A stretch of 64,000 nucleotides of DNA from Branchiostoma floridae (Eukaryota; Chordata; Leptocardii; Amphioxiformes; Branchiostomatidae): the NCBI RefSeq assembly GCF_000003815.2, contig NC_049980.1, forward strand, positions 5,469,004-5,533,003, read 5' to 3'. Numbering within the stretch: position 1 is the first letter of the stretch; each line of letters starts with the position of its first letter. The position numbers and the translations under genes were made by a program. The notes under the pieces were generated by a model, which was not told the DNA's origin, searched no databases, and was given only the letters and a program-made list of their open reading frames with translations. This document shows, piece after piece, positions 6,737 through 59,400 of this stretch.

Positions 6737-6782
<46 letters not shown>

Positions 6783-7818: not shown

Positions 7819-7904
<86 letters not shown>

Positions 7905-10900
7905 GCGTGTGTGTCTGTGTGTATGTGTACGTGTGTGTGACACAGAGAGAGGGAGAGAGACAGATAGATAGAAGATATACAAAGGGCCACTTGAGAGATT
8001 ATCAGACAGGACTTTATTAATCATGTTGCCATTTTGAATATGCCTCGGTCTTTCTATCTCAAGAAAACATCGCTCTCTTCTCCCCCAGACAGCACGTTAT
8101 ATTTGCCCCCAACGAACGCATTGAATGTTGACCTTTGAAAGTGACATATTTTGTCTACTGTATGAATTTACGAAGCTATCATATGCTTTTTCTGCGCCTT
8201 CTATTGTGTGTGTGGGGGGGGGCAGAGTATGATAGCTCCGCAAATAGTCCATAAAAGTTACGTTGCAGCATTAAAAAAACTAGCAGAAAAAATCGTAAGA
8301 AAAAGATTTATGACTCAACAGAATCCAAAATAATAAAGGAAAATCTATTTTATTCCTTTTTTTTCGACGTGATAATCAGAAAACGAAGTCTGAATTTCTT
8401 TGAAAATCAAGTCATTTTGGATTGGAATGCAATATTTGAAGAGACTCAAGTCCCAGGAATATTGACTTGTGGGGGCGATTGCCCTGTACAAAGTCTGAAT
8501 TGTCCAGTCATCTCGTCTTGATTTCATCAGAGTGAAGAAGACTTGGGGGCGATCGCCCTGTCAGGACTTGGGGGCGATCACCCTGTCAGTGCTTGGGGCG
8601 ATCGCCCTGTGATCAGAACTTGGGGGGCGATTGCCCTGTCAGTGCTTGGGGGCGATCGCCCTGCCAGGGCTTGGGGGCGATCGCCCTGTCAGGATTTGGG
8701 GGCGATCGCCCTGTCAGTCCTTGCAGTACCTGGGGGCGATCGCCCTGACAGGACAATCGCCCGTGGTGGGCCAGTATGGGGCGACTGCCCCTACTAGGGA
8801 AAATAAAAGTACATGACAAGTAGATTTTGCACAAATATTTTGTCAACCTGTTCAATGGATCACAAAAGAACTACTCAATTGAATAAGACGTTACAGCGTA
8901 GTCATCAATCATACCTGTTTATGATACTTAGCTCCTTGAATTATGATGATCAATTTTGAACTACATCGATATCTTTCACAAGGTAGGCGTATTCCTTTCA
9001 TACATACATGACAAGGTGTGTTGAAAAGCAGACAATACATATCTTACTCTTCTTGGCAATATCAAAGGATGATAATTTTCGTAGACGCTATCAGTAAATA
9101 CGTGGTGCATTTATAAGCTGTGACTACTAAAAGCGGCTGGAAAGAGAAATAGGCCTAATAGACAGATATTATGTCGGAGGAGTTAGTCCGCTAAAGGTTT
9201 ACAGTTTGCCGACCTGAGCAAAATGTACTCCTATAACGGACAAACCCCTCTTGCATGTTATCCGTCTATTTGGCCGATTTCTTAACTTTCCAGCCACCCC
9301 AGGAGTAAAGGATGATTAAAGGAAACGTTAAAACAGTTTGTGTTCGTCTAACACATGAAACTAATGATTACACTCAAAACTGCGTTCTACATAAAAGTAA
9401 TGGACCGTTTCTATATTTCGTTAGCTGAATCACACTTGTATTTTTAAGTCGGGGCGAGGGCCGGCAAAGGTGCCATTACCTGTTCCCTCGCCCCTTACAC
9501 TTCTGTGTTGAATCTTAATAAACAAATAAACTTGTAAGTTGGATATGGTTCAGTCGATCAGTGGTTAATCCTGGTTGCAGCCAGTGTCTTGTGAATCTAC
9601 TGTTATGTTCAAATTCCATGCCCTTCGGTACGCTCTCAATTCTGGCTACATCTTGCAGCTGCTTCTTCCATCAGCGCGAGCGAAACTAGACCATACTTGC
9701 TCACTACGTATACCTCTCCTAGTCCTTTCCATCCGTGGTATTCTCTGAGCAGCAACCTGTAGCCAATGAATGAATGAATGGATGAAGAATGACACTGCAA
9801 CCCACACATAAAATAAATAGAAAGCCTAAGGTAAGGTGTGAAGCAGACACAGACACGTGTATGCATACATTGCATATTGTACAGTATGACATAAATACAT
9901 ACATAATATACATACAACAGTGGACTACTTATATGCCAGAAGGGCTCAAATTCACAGATTGACAGCTGAGGAAAGCAGTCACAAAAGCATATCCGACAAA
10001 AGGAATTAAGATGTGGAGCAGGCAGGAGACATGTTCCTTAGAAACATTTGATCAAAACAGTCAAAAGAAACTGTTACTTCTCTTAATTCGGTCAGAAAGT
10101 AGAATAGGGATTTGCTACATAGATGCATGAGTAAGTGATTTCATTTTTTCTCTGATGTACAGACGGTAAATATTTGTTCAGCTACCCTATTTTCTTGACA
10201 ATCTCTTGAGTAAACTGACATGTCTTAGACAACTAAGTGTTACCCGTAAACTGCAGGTTCAGAAAGATTGGAATCTGTCTTTACGGATATTAATTTATTA
10301 TTAATGAAGGGATCAACAAAAGTAATGACTTGATTTTGTTTAAAGCAACGCACATTTCACGCTGTAACAATGTAATAAAGACAATTCAAAACCTTGCATT
10401 GCTAGGCAGAGCCATATGCATGAAAAATATATTGTGCATTTGCACACTGTCAAACTATTACTACTATATGATACTAGCAAAGGAACGGCACGATCGCAGG
10501 AAACATTGAACTAAAGAAACAATGGATATGAATAGTTAAGAGGCTATGACAGTTCATGGAATAGAGAATGGTCAAAGTCGCCTTCTATCTAGTCTATGCA
10601 TAATTTTATTAACTGTGGTCTTGGTAAAGATCTTACCCCATTCCTCCCATTAGACAGCTTTCCAGACGACTTTCGCTGACTCTAAGGGATCAGAAGATGT
10701 CTCATAACGGACCTGGATAAGATTGTGGTGAGAACATGGATACAGTAAGTCCATAAAATCCGTGGCGCTTCTAACAATGTGTTTTCATAACAAGTCGCCA
10801 TTTCTGTTAACTCCTAAGGTCCCATTACATCAGACAAAATCTGAAAAGAAAGAAGCGGTCTGAAACAGCCCTCCAATTGCTTATCAAACGACCTGCATGC

Positions 10901-13900
10901 AGAAAGTGCAAATGTTGACCGTTGACCACCGAGTGACCAATAGTAGGAAAGGAATAGTAATTGAACAGGACCTCTCAACATCAGCTCACCATAGCTCTCT
11001 TGGCACGTTAAGCTGAATAAGCCATTCTTTTTGAAAAAAAAGTTAGGTTTGCCTTATTGGAATAATTTGTAGCAGATTGCGTAACATAGCTCAAAACCTT
11101 GCTCCTATAGTATGTAATGAAGGTAATGGCAACAATCTCGTCAAAAAGGTAAAAGCTCAACACACAAATGAATAAAAAATATGTCATTGTTTTGGTTCTA
11201 TACACTACACCTTAATGTACCCATATTACCAAATGATCGGAAAACGTTGAAGGCACATTAGGCGACAAAGGAACTATTTTGAATCCAAAATTAAAAACCA
11301 TTCGACCTATTACTGCGATAGAGCTGTATTGCAATTAAAAACCAGTGACCGTAGGTAACATACTCTCAGAACACAGTACGCGGGCCCTGGTTATCTCTCC
11401 GGGTGCCAATTACCTCTGGGTGCAAATAAAGACTGGGGCTTCTATCGTTCTCTGGCGCAAGGACTATAGATTAGCGCGAAAGGGCTATAGTTTAGAGCGA
11501 GGGACTGGTATCCAGGCTACCCTGTATCGGGCTTCCCGACGAAGACTGTACGAACTGGTCGCTTGTGTATAGCGACTCACAAATTGAAAACGGTCAGCAA
11601 AAGTATTTTATGAAACGAGAAGAAAAAGATAGCAGGCTAGATTTCGCGGGTATTCCCTCTGCATTTCACGAGAAATACATCGGTCTACTGCATACAAAAC
11701 TCACATAGAGTTATACCAACACCATGTGAAGGTCCGTTAGGCTCCGACATGAAATCGAACATGGCCAAATAGGGGAACCGTACGCGTGGGAAAGCTTAAC
11801 TTCTTTTACTATCCAAGCAGAGGTTAGGTTCCGGATGTTTTTTTTTTACGTTTCTATGGCTTAGGCATTTTCCCGGGCTTTCTATTATATACCGTTTCCT
11901 TTCTTTATGCCTCGCGGCCTAGGCCGGGAGACATCAGAAAGCCCGATGAAAATGACAAAAAAAAAACTAATCTCCAAGCAGATCCTACGGTGCCATAAGA
12001 TAGTATCAAAGCTGGCCAGGGAGTACAGCCGGCTAAGGGAGTCAAACGGGCACCGGCACGGGAAGTTTGATACTATACATTACGCACCGTGGATCTGGTT
12101 GGAGATTTAAAAAAAAAAACGTCAAAAAGCAGCCGGAGTCTTATCTGTCTAACCTCTGCTTGGAGAGGAGACTTGTTTATACTAGGCGATAGCTAAATCT
12201 TTCAATTTCTTTAATCTCCAAGCAGATCCTACGGTGCCATAAGATAGTATCAAAGCTGGCCAAGGAGTATAGCCGGTCAAGGGGAATCAAACGGGCACCG
12301 GAAACCGAATGGATGCAGATCCTACGGTGGGTTTGATACTATATTACGCAACCGTGGATCTGCTTGGAGATTACAATTTCTTGGCAGGCGAGAAGATGAC
12401 TCAGCCAGGCATCCTAGCCACGTGACCCGTGACTGGTACATACAGTACCAACGGGACGTCCCTCGAGCCCTGTGCTAAACCTGGTTGTATCGACACCAGA
12501 CCAGGATTGAAAATTCAAGTAAATTGCCATGTGCTTGAATCGTGATTTATTTCAGAACTACGTAGCTTAAACGAAAACTATATCGTTAATGAAGAGTCGC
12601 CCTAACCAACTATTGTGCTAGATCTATTACTAGATTTTATCTGTGGTACCAAAACACTTCCAGATGCCCGCATATATAATATTTTATAGAGGTTCATCTG
12701 AAGTTAGATTACATAATTTACAAGTCAAGATTCCACGAGCAAATGGAATCATACCCCGCACTCTACAACTACAGTACAAGAAAACCCACAAAGACCAACA
12801 GCGACAATCAACTGATGAGAGACCGTCTATAAAACAAGAAGCTCCTACATGCCTTGTAAGACCTTGTAGAGATCTACGGCTACTCAACTCGACAAGCCCC
12901 CCTCCCGCCTATTAAACAATAACAGTATCGCCTCCCCAAAGAACAGGTCCCCAAGTGTTATACTTCGGGTGGTACACTTCGAGTGGTACACTGTATCATT
13001 TCAGAATGAAGTTCTACATACCAAAGAACATTGGGGAGCTATCCAGTCGGAAAGGCAGGCGTGTACCGCGGTCTGTTCAGTTGTTATTTTCCATAAACGA
13101 GGCGCCCGCTCTTCCACGTTGATCGATCATTTCACCATATTTGTTACAGCCACGTGAAAGTCTGTCCGTTCAAGGGAGGCCATCCTTTGTCCGTTGCCAT
13201 GATGTAACTCACGAAGAGACTGCAGAATGTCACGAAATAAGTTTAAGTCGAATCAACATAACTGTTTTGACTGTGAGAAAAGTAGTGGACCGGCCAGGGC
13301 TTTTTTTAAACCGGGGAACGGGGGCGCCGCGCCCCGATACTATCTACGTGCGCCCCCTTACTCAAATTACCGATTGTACTTTCTCTTTCAATGTAGCATT
13401 ACTTTACCATATTCACAACATGCAGTCTGTTTCAAACTGATCCTTTTTCCAGTGAACATGTAACAAAAACAACATACAATAATGTATCTTATTATTACAA
13501 GCTTCATTACTCTCAAAATATCCCAAAACATATTAATAAAACCACAAAAATAACAATTTCTGGCTTTGAGTAAAGCACACAGCAGCATGCCCACGTTCTC
13601 ATTGATAAGTTCATGGGAGGTTGGAAGAGTTCATTTTAAGTAGTAACAGGGAAAACATCTTTTTCATGGACTGTAAATTAAACATCCTTTCTTGGAAATA
13701 TTTGAATCCATATTGCACATTAAATTCAGATGGGTAAATCACTAGACAAAAGTAGCTAAAAACATAGTAATCTATACTAACTATCACATCAAAATATTGT
13801 AAATAAAATGTTAGCTCCTCCCCTTTCTGTCTGGCCCCACCTACCTGACTCCACACACTGGCTACAACACTTTTGATGTGAAACATGATATCCCTGTGAC

Positions 13901-16900
13901 ACACTGATACAGCAGAGATTGTAGCAAACTTGAAAAAGTGTGAATATAACAGATCAAGTCTGCAGTTTCTCACAACATTGTAACAAAACATTTGTTGACG
14001 ATTTAGCTGTACAAAATGAATATTTTATTTGCATATAACATATAAGGCTCAACATAGTGGTACAGAATGTAGTGTGACTGTTGCCTTGGGAGAAAAAGCA
14101 AATAGTATGCAAAAATAAAATAAATGGTTGCTTATGATAGCCATGCATAAGAATGGTGTAAGCTTATTGTGGCTAGCTATATCACATTAACAAACCAAAC
14201 TATTTCTTCTCATAACATAGGGTTTAGATTTATCATTAATTCTTAAAACATGTGCACATATAAAGGGTGATTTGTGGATAGTTTGCAAAGTTAAATTCAG
14301 TTTATATAGATAAAAGAAAAGTTGGTTTATATAAAAAACTTGACTTGACTTGTATATAAATCTTTTGACTATTTTAAAATTTGTATACAAATGTTAATAT
14401 TGAGAAACATTCTTATTAAGTGCTAAATGTTGATATTGAGAAAGAAGAATAGCCTTTGAAGGTGTTGCACAATCCAAAAGAACTACAAAAATGTAACAAG
14501 TTTAGCCAGTTTTTTCATTGTGTTAATTGTATCTTACAGGCTACAAAATATGCCTTCTTGTAGTTTTACATGGTAAGGACAAACACACATTCAAGGTATG
14601 ATTTTCCCCTTGAAGTAGCCTCAAAATGTCCCATTTTTACCTCATATTTTCAAAGGCTTCGCACAGCGGAAGGGGGGAAACCACCCTTCCGCACCAACCC
14701 CCCGCTTGGTCGCTCCGCTCCCTCGCCACACTGACCAAGCTCCCTCATACTAATTTTTTCTAGAAAAACCCCTGGACCCCACACAGGACAAGCTTTATAT
14801 CTGGACTGTTCCACTATCCCCCAGTTCGACACCCCGTCGATGACCCCGTTATGACCCCGGCCTGACTTACAAGATTTTATTCTTCAAGCAGATGTTGGGT
14901 AGAAGTGGTGGTCGGGATTTCGCAGGCAGCGGCTTCTATACTCCGACCCAATCCCCGCTTGGAGATTATTTGTGAAGCGTTTCCGACTAGTTTCTGTAGG
15001 TTTCTGTTTGCCCAGCATGTCTTTTTCCGAAGTACCGACGGATATTAAAAACAGTTTTAACTCTACTCTACGCTTCACATATAAAGTGAATTGGAGAAGG
15101 TGCTTTAATAGTTAGTGGCATAAACAGATTGAAATGTCGGAGGAGGATATAGCTATAGAAACTCTTTTTTTCTTAGCTGGACTTCGCGAACGAAGACCAT
15201 TCTCTAGGGGGTTCGTCGGCCACATGCTCGCTGATGGCTAGTCAGTCCTATGCATGCGGGACAGACACACCCGTTCACAACGGTTGCAGGGGAATGCTTC
15301 GTTGGGGGCCTGGATCACGGCGGTGTGTCTGCAGCCTTTCTTCTCAAGAGCAGCTCTATAGAAACTACATTTATTGTCATAATGAGCTGACATCAAATGC
15401 TCAAAGCCTGTACGTGGATTTCATTTGCCGACACTTTATACATTTCGAAACGTTACCATCTGAACTGTACCTATTATTCGTGGTGGGTTTAACCCGTAGC
15501 GGTTAGAACTAAAAAAAAAAAAAAAACTTAAGTCCCTGAAATGTCTAGCGACTGTTTATTTCTTTCACTTCCGTCACTTATTGGGTTTGTGTCGGTCGTA
15601 GAAAGAATCCTATTATTAGTATTAATCGGGGGTAAGACTGTTACCCATTGTGACCTTCTTCTCTCACATACCTCAATTTCCGTCAGCCGGTCTTATCAAC
15701 GCGATGGTTTTTCGCTTGCGTAACATAGTCTCCATGTTTGACTCAGGCCGGTTTTCTCGGGCCCTCTATTTTGTCATATTTTCTCTATGCTCATTAGCCA
15801 TACTCTTCAACATGTAGGTTTCGGGTCTGTTTTCATTATGCCTACCACATTACCCCCCACACAGAGGATCGACTCAGGCTTGTCTTCGGCCCCGGGCTTT
15901 CCCTTTGGTGGACAACACATTGAATTCGGACNNNNNNNNNNNNNNNNNNNNNNNNNNNNNNNNNNNNNNNNNNNNNNNNNNNNNNNNNNNNNNNNNNNNN
16001 NNNNNNNNNNNNNNNNNNNNNNNNNNNNNNNNNNNNNNNNNNNNNNNNNNNNNNNNNNNNNNNNNNNNNNNNNNNTGGTACAGACAAAAGTTGATATGTA
16101 AAGATATAAAAAAAAAAAACTGAAACCCATGTGTCTTCTTCACGAAAACAGATTCCGTTGAAAAGCGTAGTCAACAAGCAAAATTTGCACCTCAAAATGC
16201 AGGAAATAGTGCTTCAGAGGGTCTAGATTTCAAAATTTTCTGGTATCCAGACCCCCTAGAAATAACGCGCAACGTCACGCCATGCCTTCGGTGCTCGATA
16301 GAATTCCCATTCAAAATCAAGGGGACTGAAAATGATTTCAGGCTGGCTACAACCCTGCCCGGGTATGTTCTCTGCTCTTCACTTACTGGCCTGACCAGCG
16401 CACCAGCGCCGTTATCTATGTTCCTGATCTATTTATCCAAACAAGCTTCGGGGTCAACGGGGACTGAGGCCAGGCTTGGAAATTTTCGTGTGGGGCGTTA
16501 TTTTCGAAACAAAAGGTTGTATGAAGATTGATAAAACTGATAGCCTCTACCAGGCTCCGTCGATCTGTGGTCTTGTTGTAGAAATTGGACAAATAGAGTC
16601 AATAGTACGCTAGGGGAGTCGGCCGGCCAGTACAAACATTATCCTCACTCCCTTGGCGTATTGTGTCGAGCTCCACGGAGCCTGTAGAGGTTAGAATGTT
16701 GTGATTTTTAATCTCATGTCCGTTTTATGTCTACACTCCAGATGCCATGGACATAAAATAAACGATAAAGATGTAACAGGGTGCCCCTGTATTGTAATGT
16801 AATTTATCTGAATTCCGTGTACCGTTGAGATATATTAAAACTTTAGTGTAGAAAAGTATTGGTCACACTTTCCTGATCTCTTCTGAGAAGGAGGGGTCAG

Positions 16901-19900
16901 GAGTATGCGTCCGGATGACAGCCGTGAGTAATGACCCTTGAAGAGNNNNNNNNNNNNNNNNNNNNNNNNNNNNNNNNNNNNNNNNNNNNNNNNNNNNNNN
17001 NNNNNNNNNNNNNNNNNNNNNNNNNNNNNNNNNNNNNNNNNNNNNNNNNNNNNNNNNNNNNNNNNNNNNNNNNNNNNNNNNNNNNNNNNNNNNNNNNNNN
17101 NNNNNNNNNNNNNNNNNNNNNNNNNNNNNNNNNNNNNNNNNNNNNNNNNNNNNNNNNNNNNNNNNNNNNNNNNNNNNNNNNNNNNNNNNNNNNNNNNNNN
17201 NNNNNNNNNNNNNNNNNNNNNNNNNNNNNNNNNNNNNNNNNNNNNNNNNNNNNNNNNNNNNNNNNNNNNNNNNNNNNNNNNNNNNNNNNNNNNNNNNNNN
17301 NNNNNNNNNNNNNNNNNNNNNNNNNNNNNNNNNNNNNNNNNNNNNNNNNNNNNNNNNNNNNNNNNNNNNNNNNNNNNNNNNNNNNNNNNNNNNNNNNNNN
17401 NNNNNNNNNNNNNNNNNNNNNNNNNNNNNNNNNNNNNNNNNNNNNNNNNNNNNNNNNNNNNNNNNNNNNNNNNNNNNNNNNNNNNNNNNNNNNNNNNNNN
17501 NNNNNNNNNNNNNNNNNNNNNNNNNNNNNNNNNNNNNNNNNNNNNNNNNNNNNNNNNNNNNNNNNNNNNNNNNNNNNNNNNNNNNNNNNNNNNNNNNNNN
17601 NNNNNNNNNNNNNNNNNNNNNNNNNNNNNNNNNNNNNNNNNNNNNNNNNNNNNNNNNNNNNNNNNNNNNNNNNNNNNNNNNNNNNNNNNNNNNNNNNNNN
17701 NNNNNNNNNNNNNNTAATGTGGTGATTCCATATGCAAATTATGGTAGAAACGTTAAAATGTTGTCGTCAGGACTGCCTTTCTTTCTATCTTTTAAATAAT
17801 AATAAAAAGTCGAGTCAAACATGAAGTCAAATAGTCAAATATGTTACGCAAGCGAAAAACCATCGCGTTGATAAGACCGGCTGACGGAAATTGAGGTATG
17901 TGAGAGAAGAAGGTCACAATGGGTAACAGCCTTACTTCTGATTAATACTAATAATAGGATTCTTCCTACGACCGACACAAACCCAATAAGTGACGGAAGT
18001 GAAAGAAATAAACAGTCGCTAGACATTTCAGGGACTTAAGTTTTTTTTTTTTTTTAGTTCTAACCGCTACGGGTTAAACCCACCACGAATAATAGGTACA
18101 GTTCAGATGGTAACGTTTCGAAATGTATAAAGTGTCGGCAAATAAAATCCACGTACAGGCTTTGAGCATTTGATGTCAGCTCATTATGACAATAAATGTA
18201 GTTTCTATAGAGCTGCTCTTGAGGAGAAAGGCTGCAGACACACCGCCGTGATCCAGGCCCCCAACGAAGCATTCCCCTGCAACCGTTGTGAACGGGTGTG
18301 TCTGTCCCGCATGCATAGGACTGACTAGCCATCAGCGAGCATGTGGCCGACGAACCCCCTAGAGAATGGTCTTCGTTCGCGAAGTCCAGCTAAGAAAAAA
18401 AGAGTTTCTATAGCTATATCCTCCTCCGACATTTCAATCTGTTTATGCCACTAACTATTAAAGCACCTTCTCCAATTCACTTTATATGTGAAGCGTAGAG
18501 TAGAGTTAAAACTGTTTTTAATATCCGTCGGTACTTCGGAAAAAGACATGCTGGGCAAACAGAAACCTACAGAAACTAGTCGGAAACGCTTCACAAATAA
18601 TCTCCAAGCGGGGATTGGGTCGGAGTATAGAAGCCGCGGCCTGCGAAATCCCGACCACCACTTCTACCCAACATCTGCTTGAAGAATAAAATCTTGTAAG
18701 TCAGGCCGGGGTCATAACGGGGTCATCGACGGCGTGTCGAACTGGGGGATAGTGGAACAGTCCAGATATAAAGCTTGTCCTGTGTGGGGTCCACTACTTT
18801 TCTCACAGTCAAAACAGTTATGTTGATTCGACTTAAACTTATTTCGTGACATTCTGCAGTCTCTTCGTGAGTTACATCATGGCAACGGACAAAGGATGGC
18901 CTCCCTTGAACGGACAGACTTTCACGTGGCTGTAACAAATATGGTGAAATGATCGATCAACGTGGAAGAGCGGGCGCCTCGTTTATGGAAAATAACAACT
19001 GAACAGACCGCGGTACACGCCTGCCTTTCCGACTGGATAGCTCCCCAATGTTCTTTGGTATGTAGAACTTCATTCTGAAATGATACAGTGTACCACTCGA
19101 AGTGTACCACCCGAAGTATAACACTTGGGGACCTGTTCTTTGGGGAGGCGATACTGTTATTGTTTAATAGGCGGGAGGGGGGCTTGTCGAGTTGAGTAGC
19201 CGTAGATCTCTACAAGGTCTTACAAGGCATGTAGGAGCTTCTTGTTTTATAGACGGTCTCTCATCAGTTGATTGTCGCTGTTGGTCTTTGTGGGTTTTCT
19301 TGTACTGTAGTTGTAGAGTGCGGGGTATGATTCCATTTGCTCGTGGAATCTTGACTTGTAAATTATGTAATCTAACTTCAGATGAACCTCTATAAAATAT
19401 TATATATGCGGGCATCTGGAAGTGTTTTGGTACCACAGATAAAATCTAGTAATAGATCTAGCACAAAAGTTGGTTAGGGCGACTCTTCATTAACGATATA
19501 TAGTTTTCGTTTAAGCTACGTAGTTCTGAAATAAATCACGATTCAAGCACATGGCAATTTACTTGAATTTTCAATCCTGGTCTGGTGTCGATACAACCAG
19601 GTTTAGCACAGGGCTCGAGGGACGTCCCGTTGGTACTGTATGTACCAGTCACGGGTCACGTGGCTAGGATGCCTGGCTGAGTCATCTTCTCGCCTGCCAA
19701 GAAATTGTAATCTCCAAGCAGATCCACGGTTGCGTAATATAGTATCAAACCCACCGTAGGATCTGCATCCATTCGGTTTCCGGTGCCCGTTTGACTCCCC
19801 TTGACCGGCTATACTCCTTGGCCAGCTTTGATACTATCTTATGGCACCGTAGGATCTGCTTGGAGATTAAAGAAATTGAAAGATTTAGCTATCGCCTAGT

Positions 19901-22900
19901 ATAAACAAGTCTCCTCTCCAAGCAGAGGTTAGACAGATAAGACTCCGGCTGCTTTTTGACGTTTTTTTTTAAATCTCCAACCAGATCCACGGTGCGTAAT
20001 GTATAGTATCAAACTTCCCGTGCCGGTGCCCGTTTGACTCCCTTAGCCGGCTATACTCCCTGGCCAGCTTTGATACTATCTTATGGCACCGTAGGATCGG
20101 CTTCGAGATTAGTTTTTTTTTGTCATTTTCATCGGGCTTTCTGATGTCTCCCGGCCTAGGCCGCGAGGCATAAAGAAAGGAAACGGTATATAATAGAAAG
20201 CCCGGGAAAATGCCTAAGCCATAGAAACGTAAAAAAAAAAACATCCGGAACCTAACCTCTGCTTGGATAGTAAAAGAAGTTAAGCTTTCCCACGCGTACG
20301 GTTCCCCTATTTGGCCATGTTCGATTTCATGTCGGAGCCTAACGGACCTTCAAATGGTGTTGGTATAACTCTATGTGAGTTTTGTATGCAGTAGACCGAT
20401 GTATTTCTCGTGAAATGCAGAGGGAATACCCGCGAAATCTAGCCTGCTATCTTTTTCTTCTCGTTTCATAAAATACTTTTGCTGACCGTTTTCAATTTGT
20501 GAGTCGCTATACACAAGCGACCAGTTCGTACAGTCTTCGTCGGGAAGCCCGATACAGGGTAGCCTGGATACCAGTCCCTCGCTCTAAACTATAGCCCTTT
20601 CGCGCTAATCTATAGTCCTTGCGCCAGAGAACGTTAGAAGCCCCAGTCTCTATTTGCACCCAGAGGTAATTGGCACCCGGAGAGATAACCAGGGCCCGCG
20701 TACTGTGTTCTGCGGCGGGGCTAATCGGTTGCCGGCCCGAAGGGATTAGCGAGTATAGCACGGCGGTCTGGATACCCGGCTAGATACAGGGCATCTAGAA
20801 GTAAAACGAAGAGACATGAACTGTCATTTGCTCCCCGTTCTGTAAGATTGCTGTACGAAAGTGCTAGTTGATCGGTAAAGAATGTTGATTCTGTCATGTA
20901 TATTTTTTTAATCCGATTGCTGTCTAATTTTAAATGTTGTAAATGCATTAATGTTTTAAAGATGATTCTGTGACTGATGACGCATTTCATGTGTATATAC
21001 ATGCCAAGTCATCCAGGAATAAAGCTGAATCTGAATCTGAATCTGGTTTACAAAAAAAAGGTTAGCTAGCTAACGTCCTGCAAAAGTCACGTTTTTTTTT
21101 TATGCCAAATGGTGAAAAAGACGAGAAAAAAAACGACCCAGAGGGTCTCCTTTGGAGGCTATCTAAGAAACCTTAATGTCCAATTCCAGATACATGTGTT
21201 TGGAAGTCGTGTGCCCGCCCGTACTTAGCAGCCCGCTTGGCACATCCCCCACCCCGCTGGGACCAATGCGCTACCGTCATGTGGAGTTCGGAGTCCAGCG
21301 GTGGTGTTGGCGGAACAAGCTGTCATTTTTACTCTGTGACCGTCGACTGAGTATTGTAGTCGGTCTATGTAATTAGTGTTCGAACATATTTTTCATATAA
21401 AACATAGTGTCACACACCAGAAAACAACACAACCGACATAGATCATAATTACGTCGGAGAGTATGTTACCTACGGTCACTGGTTTTTAATTGCAATACAG
21501 CTCTATCGCAGTAATAGGTCGAATGGATTTTAATTTTGGATTCAAAATAGTTCTTTTGTCGCCTAATGTGCCTTCAACGTTTTCCGATCATTTGGTAATA
21601 TGGGTACATTAAGGTGTAGTGTATAGAACCAAAACAATGACATATTTTTTATTCATTTGTGTGTTGAGCTTTTATCTTTTTGACGAGATTGTTGCCATTA
21701 CCTTCATTACATACTATAGGAGCAAGGTTTTGAGCTATGTTACGCAATCTGCTACAAATTATTCCAATAAGGCAAACCTAACTTTTTTTTTTCAAAAAGA
21801 ATGGCTTATTCAGCTTAACGTGCCAAGAGAGCTATGGTGAGCTGATGTTGAGAGGTCCTGTTCAATTACTATTCCTTTCCTACTATTGGTCACTCGGTGG
21901 TCAACGGTCAACATTTGCACTTTCTGCATGCAGGTCGTTTGATAAGCAATTGGAGGGCTGTATCAGACCGCTTCTTTCTTTTCAGATTTTGTCTGATGTA
22001 ATGGGACCTTAGGAGTTAACAGAAATGGCGACTTGTTATAAAAACACATTGTTAGAAGCGCCACGGATTTTATGGACTTACTGTATCCATGTTCTCACCA
22101 CAATCTTATCCAGGTCCGTTATGAGACATCTTCTGATCCCTTAGAGTCAGCGAAAGTCGTCTGGAAAGCTGTCTAATGGGAGGAATGGGGTAAGATCTTT
22201 ACCAAGACCACAGTTAATAAAATTATGCATAGACTAGATAGAAGGCGACTTTGACCATTCTCTATTCCATGAACTGTCATAGCCTCTTAACTATTCATAT
22301 CCATTGTTTCTTTAGTTCAATGTTTCCTGCGATCGTGCCGTTCCTTTGCTAGTATCATATAGTAGTAATAGTTTGACAGTGTGCAAATGCACAATATATT
22401 TTTCATGCATATGGCTCTGCCTAGCAATGCAAGGTTTTGAATTGTCTTTATTACATTGTTACAGCGTGAAATGTGCGTTGCTTTAAACAAAATCATGTCA
22501 TTACTTTTGTTGATCCCTTCATTAATAATAAATTAATATCCGTAAAGACAGATTCCAATCTTTCTGAACCTGCAGTTTACGGGTAACACTTAGTTGTCTA
22601 AGACATGTCAGTTTACTCAAGAGATTGTCAAGAAAATAGGGTAGCTGAACAAATATTTACCGTCTGTACATCAGAGAAAAAATGAAATCACTTACTCATG
22701 CATCTATGTAGCAAATCCCTATTCCACTTTCTGACCGGATTAAGAGAAGTAACAGTTTCTTTTGACTGTTTTGATCAAATGTTTCTAAGGAACATGTCTC
22801 CTGCCTGCTCCACATCTTAATTCCTTTTGTCGGATATGCTTTTGTGACTGCTTTCCTCAGCTGTCAATCTGTGAATTTGAGCCCTTCTGGCATATAAGTA

Positions 22901-25900
22901 GTCCACTGTTGTATGTATATTATGTATGTATTTATGTCATACTGTACAATATGCAATGTATGCATACACGTGTCTGTGTCTGCTTCACACCTTACCTTAG
23001 GCTTTCTATTTATTTTATGTGTGGGTTGCAGTGTCATTCTTCATCCATTCATTCATTTATTGGCTACAGGTTGCTGCTCAGAGAATACCACGGATGGAAA
23101 GGACTAGGAGAGGTTTACGTAGTGAGCAAGTATGGTCTAGTTTCACTCGCGCTGATGGAAGAAGCAGCTGCAAGATGTAGCCAGAATTGAGAGCGTACCG
23201 AAGGGCATGAAATTTGAACATAACAAGTAGATTCACAAGACACTGGCTGCAACCAGGATTAACCACTGATCGACTGAACCATATCCAACTTACAAGTTTA
23301 TTTGTTTATTAAGATTCAACACAGAAGTGTAAGGGGCGAGGGAACAGGTAATGGCACCTTTGCCGGCCCTCGCCCCGACTTAAAAATACAAGTGTGATTC
23401 AGCTAACGAAATATAGAAACGGTCCATTACTTTTATGTAGAACGCAGTTTTGAGTGTAATCATTAGTTTCATGTGTTAGACGAACACAAACTGTTTTAAC
23501 GTTTCCTTTAATCATCCTTTACTCCTGGGGTGGCTGGAAAGTTAAGAAATCGGCCAAATAGACGGATAACATGCAAGAGGGGTTTGTCCGTTATAGGAGT
23601 ACATTTTGCTCAGGTCGGCAAACTGTAAACCTTTAGCGGACTAACTCCTCCGACATAATATCTGTCTATTAGGCCTATTTCTCTTTCCAGCCGCTTTTAG
23701 TAGTCACAGCTTATAAACGCACCACGTATTTACTGATAGCGTCTACGAAAATTATCATCCTTTGATATTGCCAAGAAGAGTAAGATATGTATTGTCTGCT
23801 TTTCAACACACCTTGTCATGTATGTATGAAAGGAATACGCCTACCTTGTGAAAGATATCGATGTAGTTCAAAATTGATCATCATAATTCAAGGAGCTAAG
23901 TATCATAAACAGGTATGATTGATGACTACGCTGTAACGTCTTATTCAATTGAGTAGTTCTTTTGTGATCCATTGAACAGGTTGACAAAATATTTGTGCAA
24001 AATCTACTTGTCATGTACTTTTATTTTCCCTAGTAGGGGCAGTCGCCCCATACTGGCCCACCACGGGCGATTGTCCTGTCAGGGCGATCGCCCCCAGGTA
24101 CTGCAAGGACTGACAGGGCGATCGCCCCCAAATCCTGACAGGGCGATCGCCCCCAAGCCCTGGCAGGGCGATCGCCCCCAAGCACTGACAGGGCAATCGC
24201 CCCCCAAGTTCTGATCACAGGGCAATCGCCCCAAGCACTGACAGGGCGATCGCCCCCAAGTCCTGACAGGGCGATCGCCCCCAAGTCTTCTTCACTCTGA
24301 TGAAATCAAGACGAGATGACTGGACAATTCAGACTTTGTACAGGGCAATCGCCCCCACAAGTCAATATTCCTGGGACTTGAGTCTCTTCAAATATTGCAT
24401 TCCAATCCAAAATGACTTGATTTTCAAAGAAATTCAGACTTCGTTTTCTGATTATCACGTCGAAAAAAAAGGAATAAAATAGATTTTCCTTTATTATTTT
24501 GGATTCTGTTCGGACTCATATTCTTCCCGCCAAAATAAACAGCGCCAACTGATTTCTTACGGCTCATTTAAGGACATAAATGATTGAATGCCATAGATCA
24601 CAACGTCCCATACGCTAGTGACACAGACCGTATCCGTGACATAGATTTTAAAACAACGACTGCCTGTAAGGTAAAGGTCGTCTGCATAAATCCTAGCCTC
24701 CTTCGCAGTCTTCTGGGGCGGCGTTGCTTTTTCTTTTTTTTTGAGATTTGAGCTGATTCGATATTTTCAACATGGCCTAAGGTTCTTTATGACTGGGAAG
24801 CAAAACTCCCTTTTCCGGCATAAAGAGAGAGATTTATCCCATGTTGAAAATCGCAAATCTGCGCTCCCCCAAAAAAATTTACGCCGCCGCTCTAGAAGTC
24901 TTCGATGGAGGCTAGCCTATATGGTGGCAGCGGCAAATGTCAACAAACCATGCAAATGAAATTAACGGCTGAAATTACTCTAATTCTTGCACATTCCGTG
25001 TAGTAGTTGGTATCTCTCATAACGCGATAATTTGACCGGGGTGGCATTATGACAATGAATGTGATAAGATATTCGTTCAGAGTACTAACGGCATTTGTTT
25101 TGGTGTCGATTTATAGCCTTTTCAGGATTTAGACCACTTCTTTGTATAGTCTACACTACGTAGAAAATCTGAAATGGTACCTTCAAAATCAAGCTGAAGT
25201 TAACTTAGTCATTGTTCTTCCACGTTTTGGTATTTAAAAAAATTAGGAAATTTTACAAGGTTTGTGAGTAGCTTCATTCCCATGCTAGTTAATTCACCAG
25301 TGCTCTCAACCCCCCCCCCCCCACACACACACACACACTCTCCGTAAACTAGCCCGCCCAATGAACATCATTCCCGCCAAAAATAAATGGCGCCAATTGA
25401 TTTTTGTTCAGTTCGTTAAAGTGCATACCTGGGTGAATGTCAACGATCGCAACGAATTATGCGTTAGTCACATACATTGTAGATTTGACTTGTCAAACAT
25501 GTAACAACGACTTCCTTAAAAGGAAAAGGTCACCTATATTACTCTACTACTCTCCAAGCAGAGGTTAGGCTTCGGCTGTTTTATCTATGTTTTTAGTCTA
25601 GGTTTTGACAATACAAGATAAAATACAAATTAGAAAGCCAGATAAAAACGACTAAAAAACTTTACAAAAACATCCGGAGCCTAACCTCGGCTTGGGGAGT
25701 AGCTATAGTCTCTACACCCTTTCTCGCAGTGGCAAATGTTTAAAACCATACATGAATGAAATCAGCGGTATTTGACCCTCCGTGTTTGTGTACATTAAAT
25801 GTTGGAATATTTTTACCAATTCCAGGGCACATTTGGTCATGAATATCAAGACAAATTGCGTTGCCAATGTGGTAAGAGTTCAGTGTCTAATGTCACCAAG

Positions 25901-26600
25901 TACTATTTCTAAAATTTAAACAATTTATCAAGGAGGTTAATCTCTCTTTAACCTGAATGAAAACTTCAACATTTAAGCTATGAAATCGTGTAGAACCGTC
26001 CAGGGCGTAGTTTGCAGCGCCCCCTTTCCACTAGACGGCGATCGCGCTGCGCTCTCACTGCAACCTAAATAGGATACGTGTAACCTTCGCTTTCATACCG
26101 GGTATATCATGCAAAACGTAAAAGTGTGACTGAGAAGACAACAAACACACCAAGTGTAAAAAGATTCGTTTCTTTTCTACAAAATTCGTCGAGCGATATG
26201 TCAAACTCTAGGTCGCAGAGAGAGCGCGGCGAGAGCGCCGTCTTAGTAGAAAGGGAGTATCATAAGGCAAGCTTTTTTGCTCAAAATTGTAGTCTTTTTG
26301 TGGGGAGAGGGATTTTTGAGATAAGCGCACCTCAAACTGCGAGTGAAAATCGCTGGCCAGCTTCCAAGTCTTACTGAAGCCAGTCAGACAAAAAAGGCGC
26401 AACTATAACAGCGAGGGATTCGTTGTCTGAACATATATTATTATCCCATGGAGCTCAAAATAGCAAGAAACTACATACTACTAGCACTTTGGCGATCACT
26501 TACCCGTGTTCAAATGGATGGTTGACAAAGCAGCAAGAAGTAAAGAAAGAAGTTTCACAAAACGCACTGAAGTACCCATCCTCTCTTCCTGGTACGACAT
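21..26600 (-). CDS. Gene 1: secreted VWA-EGF-CCP(x6...) protein, 3' end outside window
   Basis: This is a spliced gene of at least ten exons, coding at 26600-26504, 5141-5112, 4570-3992, 3523-3407, 2899-2723, 2227-2051, 1637-1461, 1246-1067, 898-722 and 200-21 (minus). Every intron has GT/AG borders and interrupts the frame in phase 1, so each domain is a shuffling-competent module. Domain order is signal peptide, short linker, VWA with a complete MIDAS, one EGF-like and six CCP. It is the tandem paralogue of gene 2 but has one more CCP exon where gene 2 switches to TSP1, and it leaves the window at the left edge. Intron 1 is about 21 kb because it contains the 16-kb inverted-repeat element. 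VWA/EGF/CCP chains of the SVEP1-like kind are extracellular adhesion or recognition proteins; ligand and exact role are unknown. Confidence 0.85.
335..595. mobile_element. MITE with ~60-bp terminal inverted repeats
   Basis: The left end starts GGGACATCCAACAGCC and the right end is its inverted counterpart finishing GGCTGTTTGATGTCCC. Pairing continues for about 60 bp with a few mismatches. Length is 261 bp, with no coding capacity. It lies in the last visible intron of gene 1, in the part not shared with gene 2. No clear target duplication was identified. Confidence 0.6.
722..898 (-). CDS. Gene 1 exon 9: CCP/sushi domain E
   Basis: This 177-nt phase 1-1 exon has acceptor TTTCAG and donor GTAAG. 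It is a CCP module ([14 protein letters not shown] start, [18 protein letters not shown]). It pairs with 48905-48729 of gene 2. Paralogy between the two genes ends just downstream of this exon, near 655. Confidence 0.9.
1067..1246 (-). CDS. Gene 1 exon 8: CCP/sushi domain D
   Basis: This 180-nt phase 1-1 exon has acceptor TTTCAG and donor GTAAG. The CCP carries the variant APPTGSN...YQDRITFTC and [13 protein letters not shown]. Four Cys and Trp are present. It pairs with 49249-49070 of gene 2 and is the closest relative of the extra exon at 200-21. Confidence 0.9.
1461..1637 (-). CDS. Gene 1 exon 7: CCP/sushi domain C
   Basis: This 177-nt phase 1-1 exon has acceptor CTACAG and donor GTAAG. 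It is a CCP module with [16 protein letters not shown] near its start, four Cys and the conserved Trp. It is the counterpart of 49643-49467 in gene 2. The plus-strand frame 1406-1672 is a shadow of this exon. Confidence 0.9.
1846..1906 (+). repeat. 20-bp minisatellite (CAGCCGAxTgAGCCGACC)
   Basis: Three to four units of the form ACCAGCCGACTGAGCCG occur in the intron between CCP B and C of gene 1. They are absent at the corresponding place in gene 2. Confidence 0.6.
2051..2227 (-). CDS. Gene 1 exon 6: CCP/sushi domain B
   Basis: This 177-nt phase 1-1 exon has acceptor TTACAG and donor GTAAG. The CCP module has all four Cys and the conserved Trp ([13 protein letters not shown] type start, [22 protein letters not shown]). 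It matches gene 2 exon 50598-50419, which carries one extra codon. Confidence 0.9.
2430..2697 (-). mobile_element. tRNA-derived SINE, 5'-truncated body
   Basis: It matches the body and 3' part of the SINE at 49945-50385 (GGTTATACCGCCCC, GGCTGATACGAGAC, GGATTTGCACCA) but lacks the tRNA-like head. It sits between CCP A and B of gene 1; the full SINE in gene 2 is between B and C, so the insertions are independent. Confidence 0.65.
2723..2899 (-). CDS. Gene 1 exon 5: CCP/sushi domain A
   Basis: This 177-nt phase 1-1 exon has acceptor TTCTAG and donor GTAACG. It encodes one CCP module with four cysteines, the GY between C2 and C3, and the Trp before the last Cys (TCPIRAAP ... FDCNQGYRL ... TCQADGAW ... 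TCQ). It differs from the downstream CCPs (CNQGY against CNSGY) and is orthologous in position to 51364-51188 of gene 2. Confidence 0.9.
3407..3523 (-). CDS. Gene 1 exon 4: EGF-like domain
   Basis: This 117-nt exon, phase 1-1, has acceptor ATGCAG and donor GTGAGT. It encodes a 39-residue EGF-like module with six cysteines in EGF spacing (LCDPSPC ... TCTV ... FQCACVTGF ... GLTC). The D-x-D/N-E/Q calcium-binding consensus is not evident at the N-terminus. It sits between VWA and the first CCP, as in gene 2 (51953-51837). Confidence 0.88.
3590..3845 (+). repeat. ~125-bp tandem duplication in EGF-VWA intron
   Basis: Two diverged units share TCGACTAC/TCAACTAC, ACAGACAAATGAAG/ATAGATAAATGAAG and the GGTTA-CTG-AAATAAAGTAGA stretch. 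The same pair is present at 52020-52270 in gene 2, so it predates the gene duplication. Confidence 0.55.
3992..4570 (-). CDS. Gene 1 exon 3: von Willebrand factor A domain
   Basis: This 579-nt exon (193 codons, phase 1-1) encodes one complete VWA domain. The MIDAS is intact: DSSES at exon residues 13-17, Thr88 in TYTGEAL, and Asp119 in the LTDDD strand end. The C-terminal AIGVG strand and the closing RIGQSICD are also present. VWA domains with an intact MIDAS coordinate Mg2+ and bind protein ligands outside the cell. Acceptor TTTCAG (4571-4573 side) and donor GTAAGT (3986-3991) are clear. The gene 2 copy (53034-52456) is almost identical; one visible difference is TDDD here against TDDV there, next to the third MIDAS position. 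The long plus-strand frame opposite is a shadow. Confidence 0.93.
4571..5111 (-). other. Intron between VWA and micro-exon (gene 1)
   Basis: AT-rich intronic sequence, well matched to 53035-53588 of gene 2. No additional exon or element is recognised. Confidence 0.7.
5112..5141 (-). CDS. Gene 1 exon 2: 30-nt linker micro-exon
   Basis: This 30-nt exon lies between a TTTTCAG acceptor and a GTAACG donor, phase 1 on both sides, coding for a Pro/Thr/Gln linker ([11 protein letters not shown] across the junctions). It is identical and identically spliced at 53618-53589 in gene 2. It links the signal peptide exon to the VWA exon. It is too short to score as an ORF. Support comes from splice sites, phase and the flanking exons. 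Confidence 0.65.
6741..6791 (+). repeat. (TG)n(AG)n microsatellite
   Basis: GT dinucleotides are followed by AG dinucleotides. The counterpart at 55219-55320 in gene 2 is much longer. Confidence 0.95.
7291..7484. mobile_element. MITE, TCTCCAAGCAG family
   Basis: Terminal inverted repeats begin TACTCTCCAAGCAGAAGTTA and end AACCTCTGCTTGGGGAGTA, with internal mirrored TATTTTGTACT / AGTACAAAATA. The pair at 55823-56008 in gene 2 shows it predates the duplication. Confidence 0.75.
7796..7932 (+). repeat. (TG)n microsatellite
   Basis: This is a long GT tract with a few C and A interruptions. It creates spurious THTHTH/CVCVCV open frames. Confidence 0.97.
8470..8785 (+). repeat. Subterminal palindromic repeat cluster, left end
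   Basis: About ten tandem units of about 25 bp have the form CTTGGGGGCGATCGCCCTG plus TCAG and a few variable bases. The core GGGCGATCGCCC is a perfect 12-bp palindrome; some units have CGATTG or CGATCA, and the last two are more diverged. The cluster begins about 150 bp inside the left terminus of the giant element. The repetitive open frames over it (GAIALS... type) are artefacts of the repeat. Subterminal repeat clusters are transposase-binding sites in several DNA transposons; here that role is inferred. Confidence 0.85.
9450..9540 (+). repeat. LINE 3'-end-like hairpin and tail
   Basis: A GGGGCGAGGG / CCCTCGCCCC stem-loop is followed by AATAAACAAATAAA, a layout like the 3' end of CR1-type LINEs. 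It is mirrored at about 23286-23380 in the right arm. No coding part is attached. Confidence 0.35.
11808..12170. mobile_element. TCTCCAAGCAG-family MITE with a nested MITE
   Basis: Outer inverted repeats ATCCAAGCAGAGGTTAGG and CTAACCTCTGCTTGGAGAGG flank an element interrupted by the smaller MITE at 11969-12107. It is mirrored at about 19912-20272 in the right arm. Confidence 0.65.
11969..12107. mobile_element. 139-bp MITE (AATCTCCAAGCAGATCC)
   Basis: Ends are AATCTCCAAGCAGATCC and GGATCTGGTTGGAGATT. The interior has GATAGTATCAAA mirrored by TTTGATACTAT. It is nested in 11808-12170 and mirrored at 20110-19972. Confidence 0.7.
12212..12373. mobile_element. Second copy of the AATCTCCAAGCAGATCC MITE
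   Basis: Terminal inverted repeats TAATCTCCAAGCAGATC and GATCTGCTTGGAGATTA are perfect. The interior is longer than in 11969-12107 because of a short internal duplication of GCAGATCCTACGGT. It is mirrored at 19869-19708. Confidence 0.7.
13295..14774. mobile_element. hAT-like non-autonomous insertion in left arm only
   Basis: This 1480-bp segment is absent from the mirrored site in the right arm (18790-18800). Its ends are CAGGGCTTTTTTTAAA and, reversed, CAGGGGTTTTTCTAGAAA, an imperfect terminal inverted repeat starting CAGGG as in hAT elements. Flanking 8-mers (13287-13294 and 14775-14782) start alike (GACC) but match only partly, so the target duplication has decayed or the ends are off by a base or two. 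The interior is AT-rich without a transposase. Confidence 0.6.
14879..14967. mobile_element. Short MITE with Cttcaagcag/cttggagatt ends
   Basis: This is an 89-bp hairpin-like element. Its ends are ATTCTTCAAGCAGATGTTGG and CCAATCCCCGCTTGGAGATT, related to the other CCAAGCAG MITEs. It is mirrored at 18690-18600. Confidence 0.5.
15932..16075. other. Assembly gap (144 N)
   Basis: This is a run of 144 N in the spacer of the inverted repeat. Translated frames spanning it are meaningless. Confidence 0.99.
16946..17714. other. Assembly gap (769 N)
   Basis: This is a run of 769 N near the centre of the inverted repeat. Gaps at the centre of long palindromes are a common assembly failure. Confidence 0.99.
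20713..21457. repeat. 745-bp segment present only in the right arm
   Basis: The left arm joins directly at about 11364 where this segment stands in the right arm. It contains a LINE-like 3' tail at 21018-21045 (AATAAAGCTGAATCTG with repeated GAATCT). Its right end, read in reverse with the neighbouring arm sequence, resembles 38067-38150. That resemblance suggests the segment may be ancestral and lost from the left arm. Confidence 0.5.
24043..24355 (-). repeat. Subterminal palindromic repeat cluster, right end
   Basis: This is the mirror image of 8470-8785, unit for unit, about 155 bp inside the right terminus. Confidence 0.85.
24524..26110 (+). repeat. Two ~840-bp diverged tandem units
   Basis: The unit starting CTTCCCGCCAAAATAAACAG (24524) recurs as TTCCCGCCAAAAATAAATGG (25368). 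Later shared landmarks are AACAACGACT-CCTTAAAAGG and the GGTATTT/GCACA region. The same pair is at 56915 and 57722 in gene 2. Non-coding; part of intron 1. Confidence 0.5.
25548..25701. mobile_element. TCTCCAAGCAG-family MITE in gene 1 intron 1
   Basis: Ends are TACTCTCCAAGCAGAGGTTA and TAACCTCGGCTTGGGGAGTA, with a mirrored interior. The paralogous copy is at 57890-58047. Confidence 0.75.
26504..26600 (-). CDS. Gene 1 exon 1: signal peptide
   Basis: This 97-nt coding exon runs from ATG at 26600-26598 to a GTAAGT donor (ACTTAC at 26498-26503). It gives 32 residues plus one base (phase 1). A second Met at residue 8 is followed by a basic patch and a Leu-rich core (VKLLSLLLAAL, residues 15-25), a typical secretory signal. 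An in-frame TAG lies 54 nt upstream of the first ATG, so this is the first possible start in the exon. The same exon, start, upstream TAG and donor position are kept at 60437-60341 in gene 2. Its phase fits the 30-nt exon at 5141. The other open frame through here (26871-26500) ignores the donor and is not supported. Confidence 0.75.
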
Positions 26601-26950: not shown

Positions 26951-26954
26951 TACC

Positions 26955-36729: not shown

Positions 36730-36789
36730 GATGGTTAGTGTCGTTCTTACAACATGGTGAATTGTGGCATTTTCCTCATTGCCAGAGAT

Positions 36790-51095: not shown

Positions 51096-51141
<46 letters not shown>

Positions 51142-55213: not shown

Positions 55214-55278
<65 letters not shown>

Positions 55279-56364: not shown

Positions 56365-56395
<31 letters not shown>

Positions 56396-56413
56396 CGGTT
56401 GCGGGTGTGTGTC

Positions 56414-56445
<32 letters not shown>

Positions 56446-59400
56446 TGTGTGTGTGCGTGTGCGGGTGTGTGCACGCGGTTGTGTGTGCGTGTACGTGTGT
56501 GTGAGTATGTGCGTGCAGTGCGCGTGCTCGCGGGTGTATACGTGTGTGTGTGTGAGAGAGGGAGAGAGATAGATAGATAAAAGATATACAAATGGCCACT
56601 TGATAGATCAGCAATTACTAATAATAAGAGGATACCTCGCTCATTCTACTTAACAAAGCATCGCTCTCTTCTACCCCAGACAGCAGGTTATATTTGCCCC
56701 CAAGGAACACGCTGTATGTTGACCTTTGAAAGTGACATATTCTGTCTACTGTATGAATTTATGAAATGATCATAGGCTTTGTCTATACCTTCTTGGGGGA
56801 AAGAGTTGTAGGCAGAGTAGAATAGCTTGAAACACACTCCATAAATGTATGTAAAGTAAAGTTATAACACGAAAAACTAGCAAAAAAAATCGTAATAAAA
56901 AGATTTATGACTCATATTCTTCCCGCCAAAATAAACAGCGCCAACTGATTTCTTCCGGCTCATTTGAAGGCATAAATGGCTGAACACCATCGATCACAAT
57001 GACTCGTACGTTAGTGACACAGATATTATCAGTGACATAGATTCGAAAACAACGACTGCTTCAAAGGTAAAGGTCGTCTGTATATGTAATTAAGCCACCT
57101 TCGCAGACTTCTAGAGCGGCGGCGTTTATATTAAATTTGGAGAGCGCTGGTTCGCTATTTCCAACATGGGCTAAGGTTCTCTAGGACAGGAAAACAATAC
57201 TCCCTTTCCCGTCATAGACAAAGAAATTTAGCGCATGTTGAAAATAGCAAATCGGGGCTTCCCCCCCAAAAAAAACGCAGTCACTCAAGAAGTCTGCGAA
57301 GGAGGCTACTCTTAATGGCGACAGTATTATATGTCAACGAAGCATGTGCAAATTAAATAAACGGCTGAAAGGACTCTACGACTCTTGCACCTTCAGTGTA
57401 GTAGTTGGTATCTCACCCAGTGCGCAAATTTGACTGGTGTGGTGCAATGAAAATGAATGTGCTGAAATATTCGTCAAATCACTAATGTCATTTTGTTTTC
57501 GTGTTTTCTTATATCATTTTCAAGATTTAAACCACTGTTTTGTATTGCATACACAACATCGAAAATCTAGAAACGATCCATTCAAAATTATGCTGAATCT
57601 AACTTAGTCATTGGTCTCCCACATTTTGGTGTTTAAAAAATTTCGGAAATTTGTACGTTAGTTCACCAGGGCTCTCATACACCCCTCCCCACTCCCCGTA
57701 AACTAACCCGCCCAATGAACATCGTTCCCGCCAAAAATAAATGGCGCCAATTGATTTCTTTCAGTTCGTTAAAGCACATAACTGAGTGAATGTCAACGAT
57801 CGCATTATGCGTTAGTCACATAGATGTGATCTGCCAAACATGTAACAACGACTTCCTTAAAAGGAAAAGGTCACCTATATTACTCTACTACTCTCCAAGC
57901 AGAGGTTTGGCTCTGGCTGTTTTTTTTTAGGTTTTTTATTCTAGGTTTTGACTAGTATACAAGATAAAATATAAAATAGAAAGCCAGACAAAAACGAATA
58001 AAAAAACGTTACAAAAACAGCCGGAGCATAACCTCGGCTTGGGGAGTTACTAAGTCTCCACGCCATTTCTGTTTATAAATAATACGTATGGGAATGAAAT
58101 GAACGGTATTTCACACCCTGTGTTTCTGTGCACACAACCAAAACTCCTCAGCCACTCTTCTATACTACCTAATAAGATGTTGGTATTTTCTTACCAATTG
58201 CAGGGCACATTTTGTCATGAATACCAGGGAAAATTGTATTGCCAATGTGGTAAGAGTATTGAATTTCGTTCAGTGTATGATGTCGCCCTGTATTATTTCT
58301 ATAGCTTAAGCAGTTTTAGCAAGGAGATAAATCCCTCTTGAGCCTGAATAAAAACTTCAACATTTAAGCTATGAAATCGTGTAGAACCGTCCAGGACGTA
58401 GTTTGTTACCCCCCCCCCCCCCCCCCTCCACTACACGGTGATCGCGCTGCGCTCTCACTGCGACCTAAATAGGATATGTGTAACCTTCGCTTTCAAACTG
58501 GTTATATCATACAAAAGTAAAAGTGTGACTGAGAAGATAACAAACACAAGTGTAACTAGAAAGGCCGACATTTGCTTGAGAGCAAATACAGCATATTTCA
58601 GCCATCTCCCTCCTCATGTAAGAATAGACTGTTCCAAAATCACCCATGTGCAAAAATGGAACACTTCTGCTTAAAATGACTTCTAACTACTAATCACACT
58701 TATGAGCAAAAATGAATCTTACAAAACCTCCTTCAAGAATGGACTATTCTAGTGCACCCCATGTAGAAAGTTAAAATAGACGACTTCAAAAACACTTCCG
58801 CTAAGTAATGGAATTTTGAATCATCAGCCGTCCAAAACCAAAAATGAAAAAAAAAACCTCTGTGCAAGAATCGACTCTTCCTGTTATACCCCTATGTAAA
58901 TTGGAGCGATCCAAAAATAAATCAGCTAAAATAGGACATCGACATAATCAACAAAGTCCACAAAATGAATTTAAAAGAATACCCCCTTCGTCGAAGAATG
59001 GTATCTCCCAGCACACCCTGTTTACAATTGCACAATAGTCCAGAAATACTCACAGTACATGGCCTTTTGTATAATAAGCAACCCAGTCCAAAACTGAATT
59101 TTAAAAAAGTCCCCCGTGCATGAATGGACTCTTCCAGATAACACCAGGCTTGCTAATTGGCTGCCAAATCCTCCTCATGTGCAGTCTTCAGGTGCGGGTC
59201 AAATTCCATTCAACAAATGGAATTCGGAATCATCACCCATGTCCAAAACTGAATTTTTTAAAAATCCCCCCTATGTGCAAAAATGGACTGTCCCAGTAGT
59301 AGTCTTACTTATGTCAAGTGGTTCAGTGCAAAAACACTTCCGCTAAAAAAACATTGGCATTATCACCAAAGTCTAAAAGTAAATTTTTAAAAACACCCCC

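Follow-up and report, generated by a model that had tools for sequence, protein, structure and literature searches.

How did a 16.2-kb near-palindrome come to sit in an intron of an amphioxus gene region? The block occupies positions 8317-24510 of the 64,000-nucleotide stretch of Branchiostoma floridae DNA analysed here (RefSeq assembly GCF_000003815.2, contig NC_049980.1, 5,469,004 to 5,533,003), which we call the window. An initial annotation, made from the window sequence alone, had read it as a giant foldback-type transposon, perhaps non-autonomous, inserted as a unit with a 6-bp target duplication. That reading stands as regards the unit insertion, the dispersed family and the poor fit to Polintons, and fails as regards the duplication length and the exact end. 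The block is very probably a member of a family of giant, non-autonomous, foldback-type DNA transposons moving by cut-and-paste. The family is apparently undescribed; its structural kind, the foldback, is already known, while its size and palindromicity are extreme.

The two arms match each other (8317-15727 against 24510-17840) in three collinear inverted blocks of 99.4, 99.3 and 99.0% identity, in keeping with the mirrored structure first described. GACTCA is present where it had been reported, on the outer flanks at 8312 and 24513 and singly at 56909, the last in an unoccupied intron retained by a tandem paralogue at 48-62 kb of the window; joined through one GACTCA, the outer flanks give 58 unbroken bases identical to that intron across the junction. 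The element is precisely inserted into its intron. Because GACTCA occurs 20 times on the plus strand of the window, the motif by itself is weak, and the claim is carried by the empty site and by the statistics of the family.

A search of the genome (513 Mb, 431 contigs) with the 301-bp left end gave 82 first-look candidates, of which 40 were scored; each of the 40 has a match of at least 240 bases, and convergent pairs 12-18 kb apart are frequent among them. The 29-base terminal pattern AACAGAATCCAAAATAATAARGGAAAATC, with up to three mismatches allowed, retrieves 74 sites (34 forward, 40 reverse) and a looser pattern 80, as compared to none for the reversed control in either case. Neighbouring sites less than 60 kb apart form 26 pairs, 25 convergent and one divergent; 18 of the convergent pairs are 12-20 kb long, and the remaining seven measure 1.07, 3.7, 27, 29, 34, 47 and 59 kb. 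With the addition of C6, whose left end is damaged, the convergent pairs again make 26, and in 18 of these an exact 4-bp duplication adjoins AACAG...CTGTT, with no pair matching at 5-8 bp; left and right flanks taken from different copies match at 4 bp in only 3 of 650 pairings. The duplication that marks movement of this family is therefore of 4 bp rather than 6. The initial annotation had asked whether the termini recur with target duplications; they do, which favours a dispersed family. The 18 exact duplications share no fixed sequence, although the third base leans to A (11/18), and those containing G or C include GTCG, GGAC and CCAA. Exact duplications also flank the pairs C19 (29 kb), C8c (34 kb) and C16 (59 kb), so either very large units moved or they grew after moving; those of C8c and C19 are CTGT and TCAG.

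The register of the other copies also corrects the ends of the window copy, which we label C2 (other copies are named by contig label, e.g. C12, C3, C8d). Its right terminus reads CTGTT-CGG-ACTC, and the AACAG...CTGTT register places the first base, A, at 8317 and the last, T, at 24510. The six duplicated bases reported initially are thus a 4-base duplication, ACTC, plus adjoining matches; the three extra bases CGG are presumably filler, and the end is AACAGAATCC instead of ACAGAATCC.

Fourteen copies were read whole, the window copy and 13 others, and 13 of them have long inverted arms, with paired fractions of 0.23-0.88. Subfamily A (C2, C12, C9, C3, C13 and C6) consists of near-complete palindromes; the paired fraction is 0.72-0.88 in five of these six and in C8d and C9s, and 0.33 in the gapped C9. 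Subfamily B (C4a, C11, C7, C14a and C14b) is paired over 1.7-3.1 kb of each arm and has a longer core, with paired fractions of 0.23-0.38. Likeness between A and B is limited to ∼400 terminal bases at 82-86% identity, so that by sequence the subfamilies have little in common beyond their ends. Subfamily C is C8d, whose 5.3-kb arms are alike at 97.6% and which resembles A distantly; the 3.7-kb C9s is also a palindrome, related to both A and C. Subfamily D comprises C8c and C19, which have ∼125 terminal bases in common with C at 78%; a 963-bp probe from the D core finds two places only, C19 itself and C8c at 99%. The near-identity of C2 to C12, and of C8c to C19, suggests recent movement. The traits of a foldback are all found: inverted arms that are long and account for much of the element, arms that contain tandem repeats (25-bp units at either end of the window copy, and GGCGAT(C/T)GCC motifs clustered near both ends in 11/11 A and B copies), and target duplications showing movement, exact in 18/26. 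A 19-kb element, C17, is palindromic near its centre; the C17 stretch that served as a probe consists largely of a nested 1.8-kb repeat (piece L056, 400-2220) of the dispersed kind. This repeat matches ten other places at near full length, nine of them at 92-96% and the tenth at 79%; one of the ten places is inside the C8a pair. B-type pieces with no recognised ends also exist, e.g. on C166 (around 17-24 kb) and on C14 (around 4.53 Mb).

Taken alone, the window would allow a one-off rearrangement, raised in the initial annotation, in which a smaller insertion later underwent inverted duplication in place. Six sampled loci with differing ten-base flanks nevertheless carry A arms in inverted pairs, four of these loci (C12, C9, C13 and C6, not C2 or C3) having exact 4-bp duplications, and an arm deletion common to C2 and C12 means that the palindrome already existed when those two copies separated. 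Because dispersed palindromic copies lie at other loci, we reject this history as next to impossible; the same copies, together with the empty site, support insertion of the palindrome as a unit. Head-to-head scaffolding of two haplotypes or contigs would account for the two N gaps of the C2 spacer (15932-16075, 144 bases; 16946-17714, 769 bases) and for the contig between them, 16076-16945, which, judged by the spacer pieces on either side of it, has the reverse orientation of its homologues in C12, C3, C13 and C9 (split in two in C9) and is therefore probably mis-oriented in the assembly. The first 284 bases of this contig have no match in those four copies and a 90% match to a B-type piece of C5. 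Such an artefact is very improbable, since the palindromes C12, C3, C7, C14a, C8d and C9s are gap-free and the two outer flanks of C2 find their matches in a single paralogous intron, to either side of the empty site. Derivation from a CACTA/EnSpm transposon is likewise improbable. It would make the family's own gene of a 760-amino-acid (aa) open frame inside the 27-kb C5 element (C5:3583500-3610934), the best of 28 matches to PF02992 in the genome; yet this is the only one of the 28 within a terminal pair, and it is nested there, in an ∼11.6-kb insertion flanked by its own 9-bp duplication TGGTCGAAC, which is single and uninterrupted at the corresponding place of the related copy C14b. The family termini are not CACTA-like, and none of the 28 matches is a PF02992-type transposase belonging to the family, which counts against EnSpm/CACTA, including Chapaev. 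Tandem repeats of ∼183 bp lie in the same nested insertion (piece L051, 3500-4985), a few kb from the frame.

The arms themselves bear on a further alternative, that the palindrome is regenerated at each transposition by copying one arm, through snap-back or gap-repair replication. Variable sites were sorted as same-copy, same-side or cross, and filtered to well-aligned columns. In all ten A pairs (five copies, C9 being left out) there are 15-58 same-copy, 0-12 same-side and 0-1 cross sites; A arms are closer within copies than between them, and have thus been homogenised within copies. This is what arm-copying would give, and seven of ten B pairs lean likewise. Against it, the B pairs C14a-C11, C14a-C4a and C11-C4a have same-copy/same-side/cross counts of 0/64/0, 0/80/1 and 1/71/1. 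The arms of these copies had thus already diverged from each other by the time the copies parted, and the element moved as a whole, its orientation kept. Moreover, a 745-bp arm deletion is common to C2 and C12 on matching sides (C12, in opposite orientation, has it in its right arm with the same breakpoints), so the palindrome is not simply rebuilt at each move. In arm trees, the two arms of one copy group together for C13, C3 and C6, the arms of C2 and C12 group by side, those of C9 are unresolved, and B arms split by side. As a general account, arm-copying appears unlikely; for subfamily A alone, it may hold.

Several observations weigh against a non-autonomous foldback family moved as whole palindromes. 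No excision was observed, and no transposase was found, PF02992 being the only transposase family searched genome-wide. Among the 74 terminal sites, 24 have no convergent partner within 60 kb, and 8 of the 26 pairs lack an exact duplication: C2 (ACTC plus three extra bases), C5, C8a, C8b and C4b, together with C3, C11 and C166, whose flanks match at three of the four bases each. Two of these, C5 (27 kb) and C166 (47 kb), may each combine the ends of separate insertions. The 1.07-kb C12s, a B-type remnant, has no inverted arm of at least 100 bp. In the seven B pairs just mentioned, same-copy sites exceed same-side sites, from 27/25 to 86/12. Counted without the column filter, same-side sites are more numerous in places, e.g. 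72 for C12-C2 and 102 for C3-C13; for C2-C12, the comparison in which this was traced, the extra sites fall in the spacer or in poorly aligned stretches. Finally, D resembles C over only ∼125 end bases, so mobilisation of both by one enzyme is something we infer.

In agreement with the initial annotation, no transposase was recognised in the window element. Windows along the A and B alignments show no three-base periodicity above chi-square 9.2 (0/136 and 0/195), as compared to a host exon pair of ∼650 bp, which does show it, with 31 differences that fall 3/22/6 by codon position. Lengths divisible by 3 are not over-represented among short indels (160/664 in A, 182/766 in B), and the open reading frames (ORFs) scanned against Pfam, four inside the window element and four from the C17, C19 and C8c pieces, match no family. 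Subfamily A thus lacks a coding signal at the sequence level. C19 does hold a 162-aa open frame (piece L058, 460-945, plus strand), whose C8c counterpart is 98% identical over 157 residues. Its relatives, some interrupted, are found in eleven B-type pairs or near-pairs and in a fragment that adjoins a run of N at C14:4.53 Mb. The ratio of non-synonymous to synonymous substitution rates (dN/dS), when C19 is compared with four B-type copies, comes to 0.33-0.39 for the 57 best-aligned codons and to 0.40-0.51 for the frame as a whole, whereas among B-type copies it scatters around 1 (0.88-1.55, whole frame). D therefore appears, on small numbers, to keep a constraint that B has lost, its exon under selection and the B relative decaying. 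This exon has no Pfam match and only weak matches to solved structures (E 0.41 and 0.31); its C-terminal part may, by eye, be ubiquitin-like. Among viral contigs, 117 pattern matches include none encoding a relative, and the first 1.2 kb of the window element has no match among phage records.

Movement of the family would be by cut-and-paste, with a transposase, presumably of DDE type, acting in trans and recognising the common terminal ∼29 bp; the subterminal GC-rich tandem repeats are predicted to be extra binding sites. The whole palindrome, typically 12-20 kb, would be inserted at targets that follow no fixed sequence, 4 bp being duplicated, travelling as one unit with its left-right orientation kept, and after the move its arms would be homogenised by gene conversion or arm-templated repair. 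D may include the nearest coding relatives. A wider proposal, which we hold possible rather than probable, is that these are a new superfamily of giant DNA transposons of 12-59 kb, in which non-autonomous members have become near-complete kilobase palindromes, keep themselves up by arm-to-arm conversion as sex-chromosome palindromes do, hop as units and are moved by the novel coding lineage D (∼30 kb).

Among the nearest structural precedents are the Foldback (FB) elements of Drosophila, with long inverted repeats, internal tandem repeats and a variable middle without genes. Polinton/Maverick elements have a 6-bp duplication and AG...CT termini, and we rule them out on the duplication (0/26 at 6 bp) and on the ends, AACAG...CTGTT, bearing out the poor fit noted initially. 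The following comparisons are with systems described in the papers cited; PMC6431247 and PMC4455052 were also consulted. Tetris/DAIBAM (PMC4079207) are similar in their long inverted repeats with tandem repeats and gene-less variable middle; we also count as a likeness that no autonomous Tetris copy is known and that a short relative, DAIBAM, has common ends with it. Tetris duplications are of 8-10 bp, and its authors suggest Mutator, whereas the amphioxus family has a 4-bp duplication and elements of 12-18 kb in which each paired arm measures ∼2-6 kb. In root-knot nematodes, Tm1 (PMC3169594) has Foldback-like ends with short tandem repeats and, counted likewise as a likeness, gene-less elements resembling miniature inverted-repeat transposable elements beside transposase-coding groups with common ends; unlike our family, its duplications are mostly 9-bp, its elements, as described there, are of one to a few kb, and it is Mutator/Foldback by the title of the paper. 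We rule out Mutator-like foldbacks of both kinds by their 8-10 bp duplications, since 0/26 pairs match at 8 bp and matches of 9 and 10 bp would include 8. Galileo, of the P superfamily (PMC3573991), is similar in its long, internally repetitive inverted repeats, recombination between repeats and chimeric copies without matching duplications, but has 7-bp duplications and a known transposase, where the amphioxus family has 4 bp and none found.

Systems with 4-bp duplications differ in other respects. Kolobok (PMC9587614) agrees in duplication length and in its 5'-RR...YY-3' termini (AA...TT here), but its duplication is TTAA, found in none of our 18 exact cases, on which we rule it out; KolobokP, reported in the same paper from three Branchiostoma species, has long repeats that are direct, not inverted, and oyster families of 4.0-4.7 kb. 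Ginger1 and Ginger2 (PMC2836005), reported from B. floridae itself, are ruled out by their TGTNR termini and differ also in their CCGG/CCGT or RTATAY targets and inverted repeats of ∼40-270 bp. Sola2 (PMC3627910) agrees in duplication length and has families with one common end and an unrelated remainder; its duplications are AT-rich (such as AWWT), while several of ours hold G/C, and its inverted repeats are of 12-21 bp. Literature on amphioxus and Branchiostoma foldbacks, long inverted repeats, palindromes and 4-bp duplications gave no such elements among the matches listed, a survey that had most subscription papers and Repbase outside its scope and does not show absence from print.

Table 1. 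Parts of the window copy and its empty site, in window coordinates
Feature	Position	Strand	Detail
Whole element, copy C2 of subfamily A	8317..24510		AACAGAATCC...GGATTCTGTT, 16194 bp
Left arm	8317..15727	+	
Right arm, inverted copy of left arm	17840..24510	-	
Left 4-bp target duplication	8313..8316	+	ACTC
Right 4-bp target duplication	24514..24517	+	ACTC
Extra bases between right terminus and right ACTC	24511..24513	+	CGG
Subterminal 25-bp tandem repeats, left	8540..8717	+	7 copies, core GGGGGCGATCGCCC
Subterminal 25-bp tandem repeats, right	24110..24287	-	
Secondary insertion unique to left arm	13292..14773		1482 bp (1.48 kb); missing in copy C12
Segment unique to right arm	20713..21457		745 bp; left arm of C2 without it
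Unpaired spacer	15728..17839		Two N gaps
Empty site in paralogous intron	56909..56914	+	Single GACTCA

The secondary insertion in the left arm (Table 1) has CAGGG-like ends, an end motif from which we take it to be possibly a non-autonomous hAT-type element. The surrounding gene region, of VWA/Sushi type, is tandemly duplicated (647-8317 plus 24513-27768 against 48655-61628, 77-93% identity), with the element in one copy only; the genes of the window encode VWA, Sushi and TSP1 domains. A retrotransposon of the class without long terminal repeats lies on the minus strand at 33296-37518, with reverse transcriptase, endonuclease and GDSL-like ORFs.

Palindromes of kilobase size, best known from sex chromosomes, are generally regarded as unstable. 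Many in this family have been spread by transposition, their arms staying alike apparently through conversion, and they offer independent, datable replicates in which to measure arm-to-arm conversion. The movement of 12-20 kb palindromes with no recognisable genes also probes the upper size of the unit that such a system is able to move, and as ready-made inverted repeats the copies may serve as seeds for inversions and small RNAs.

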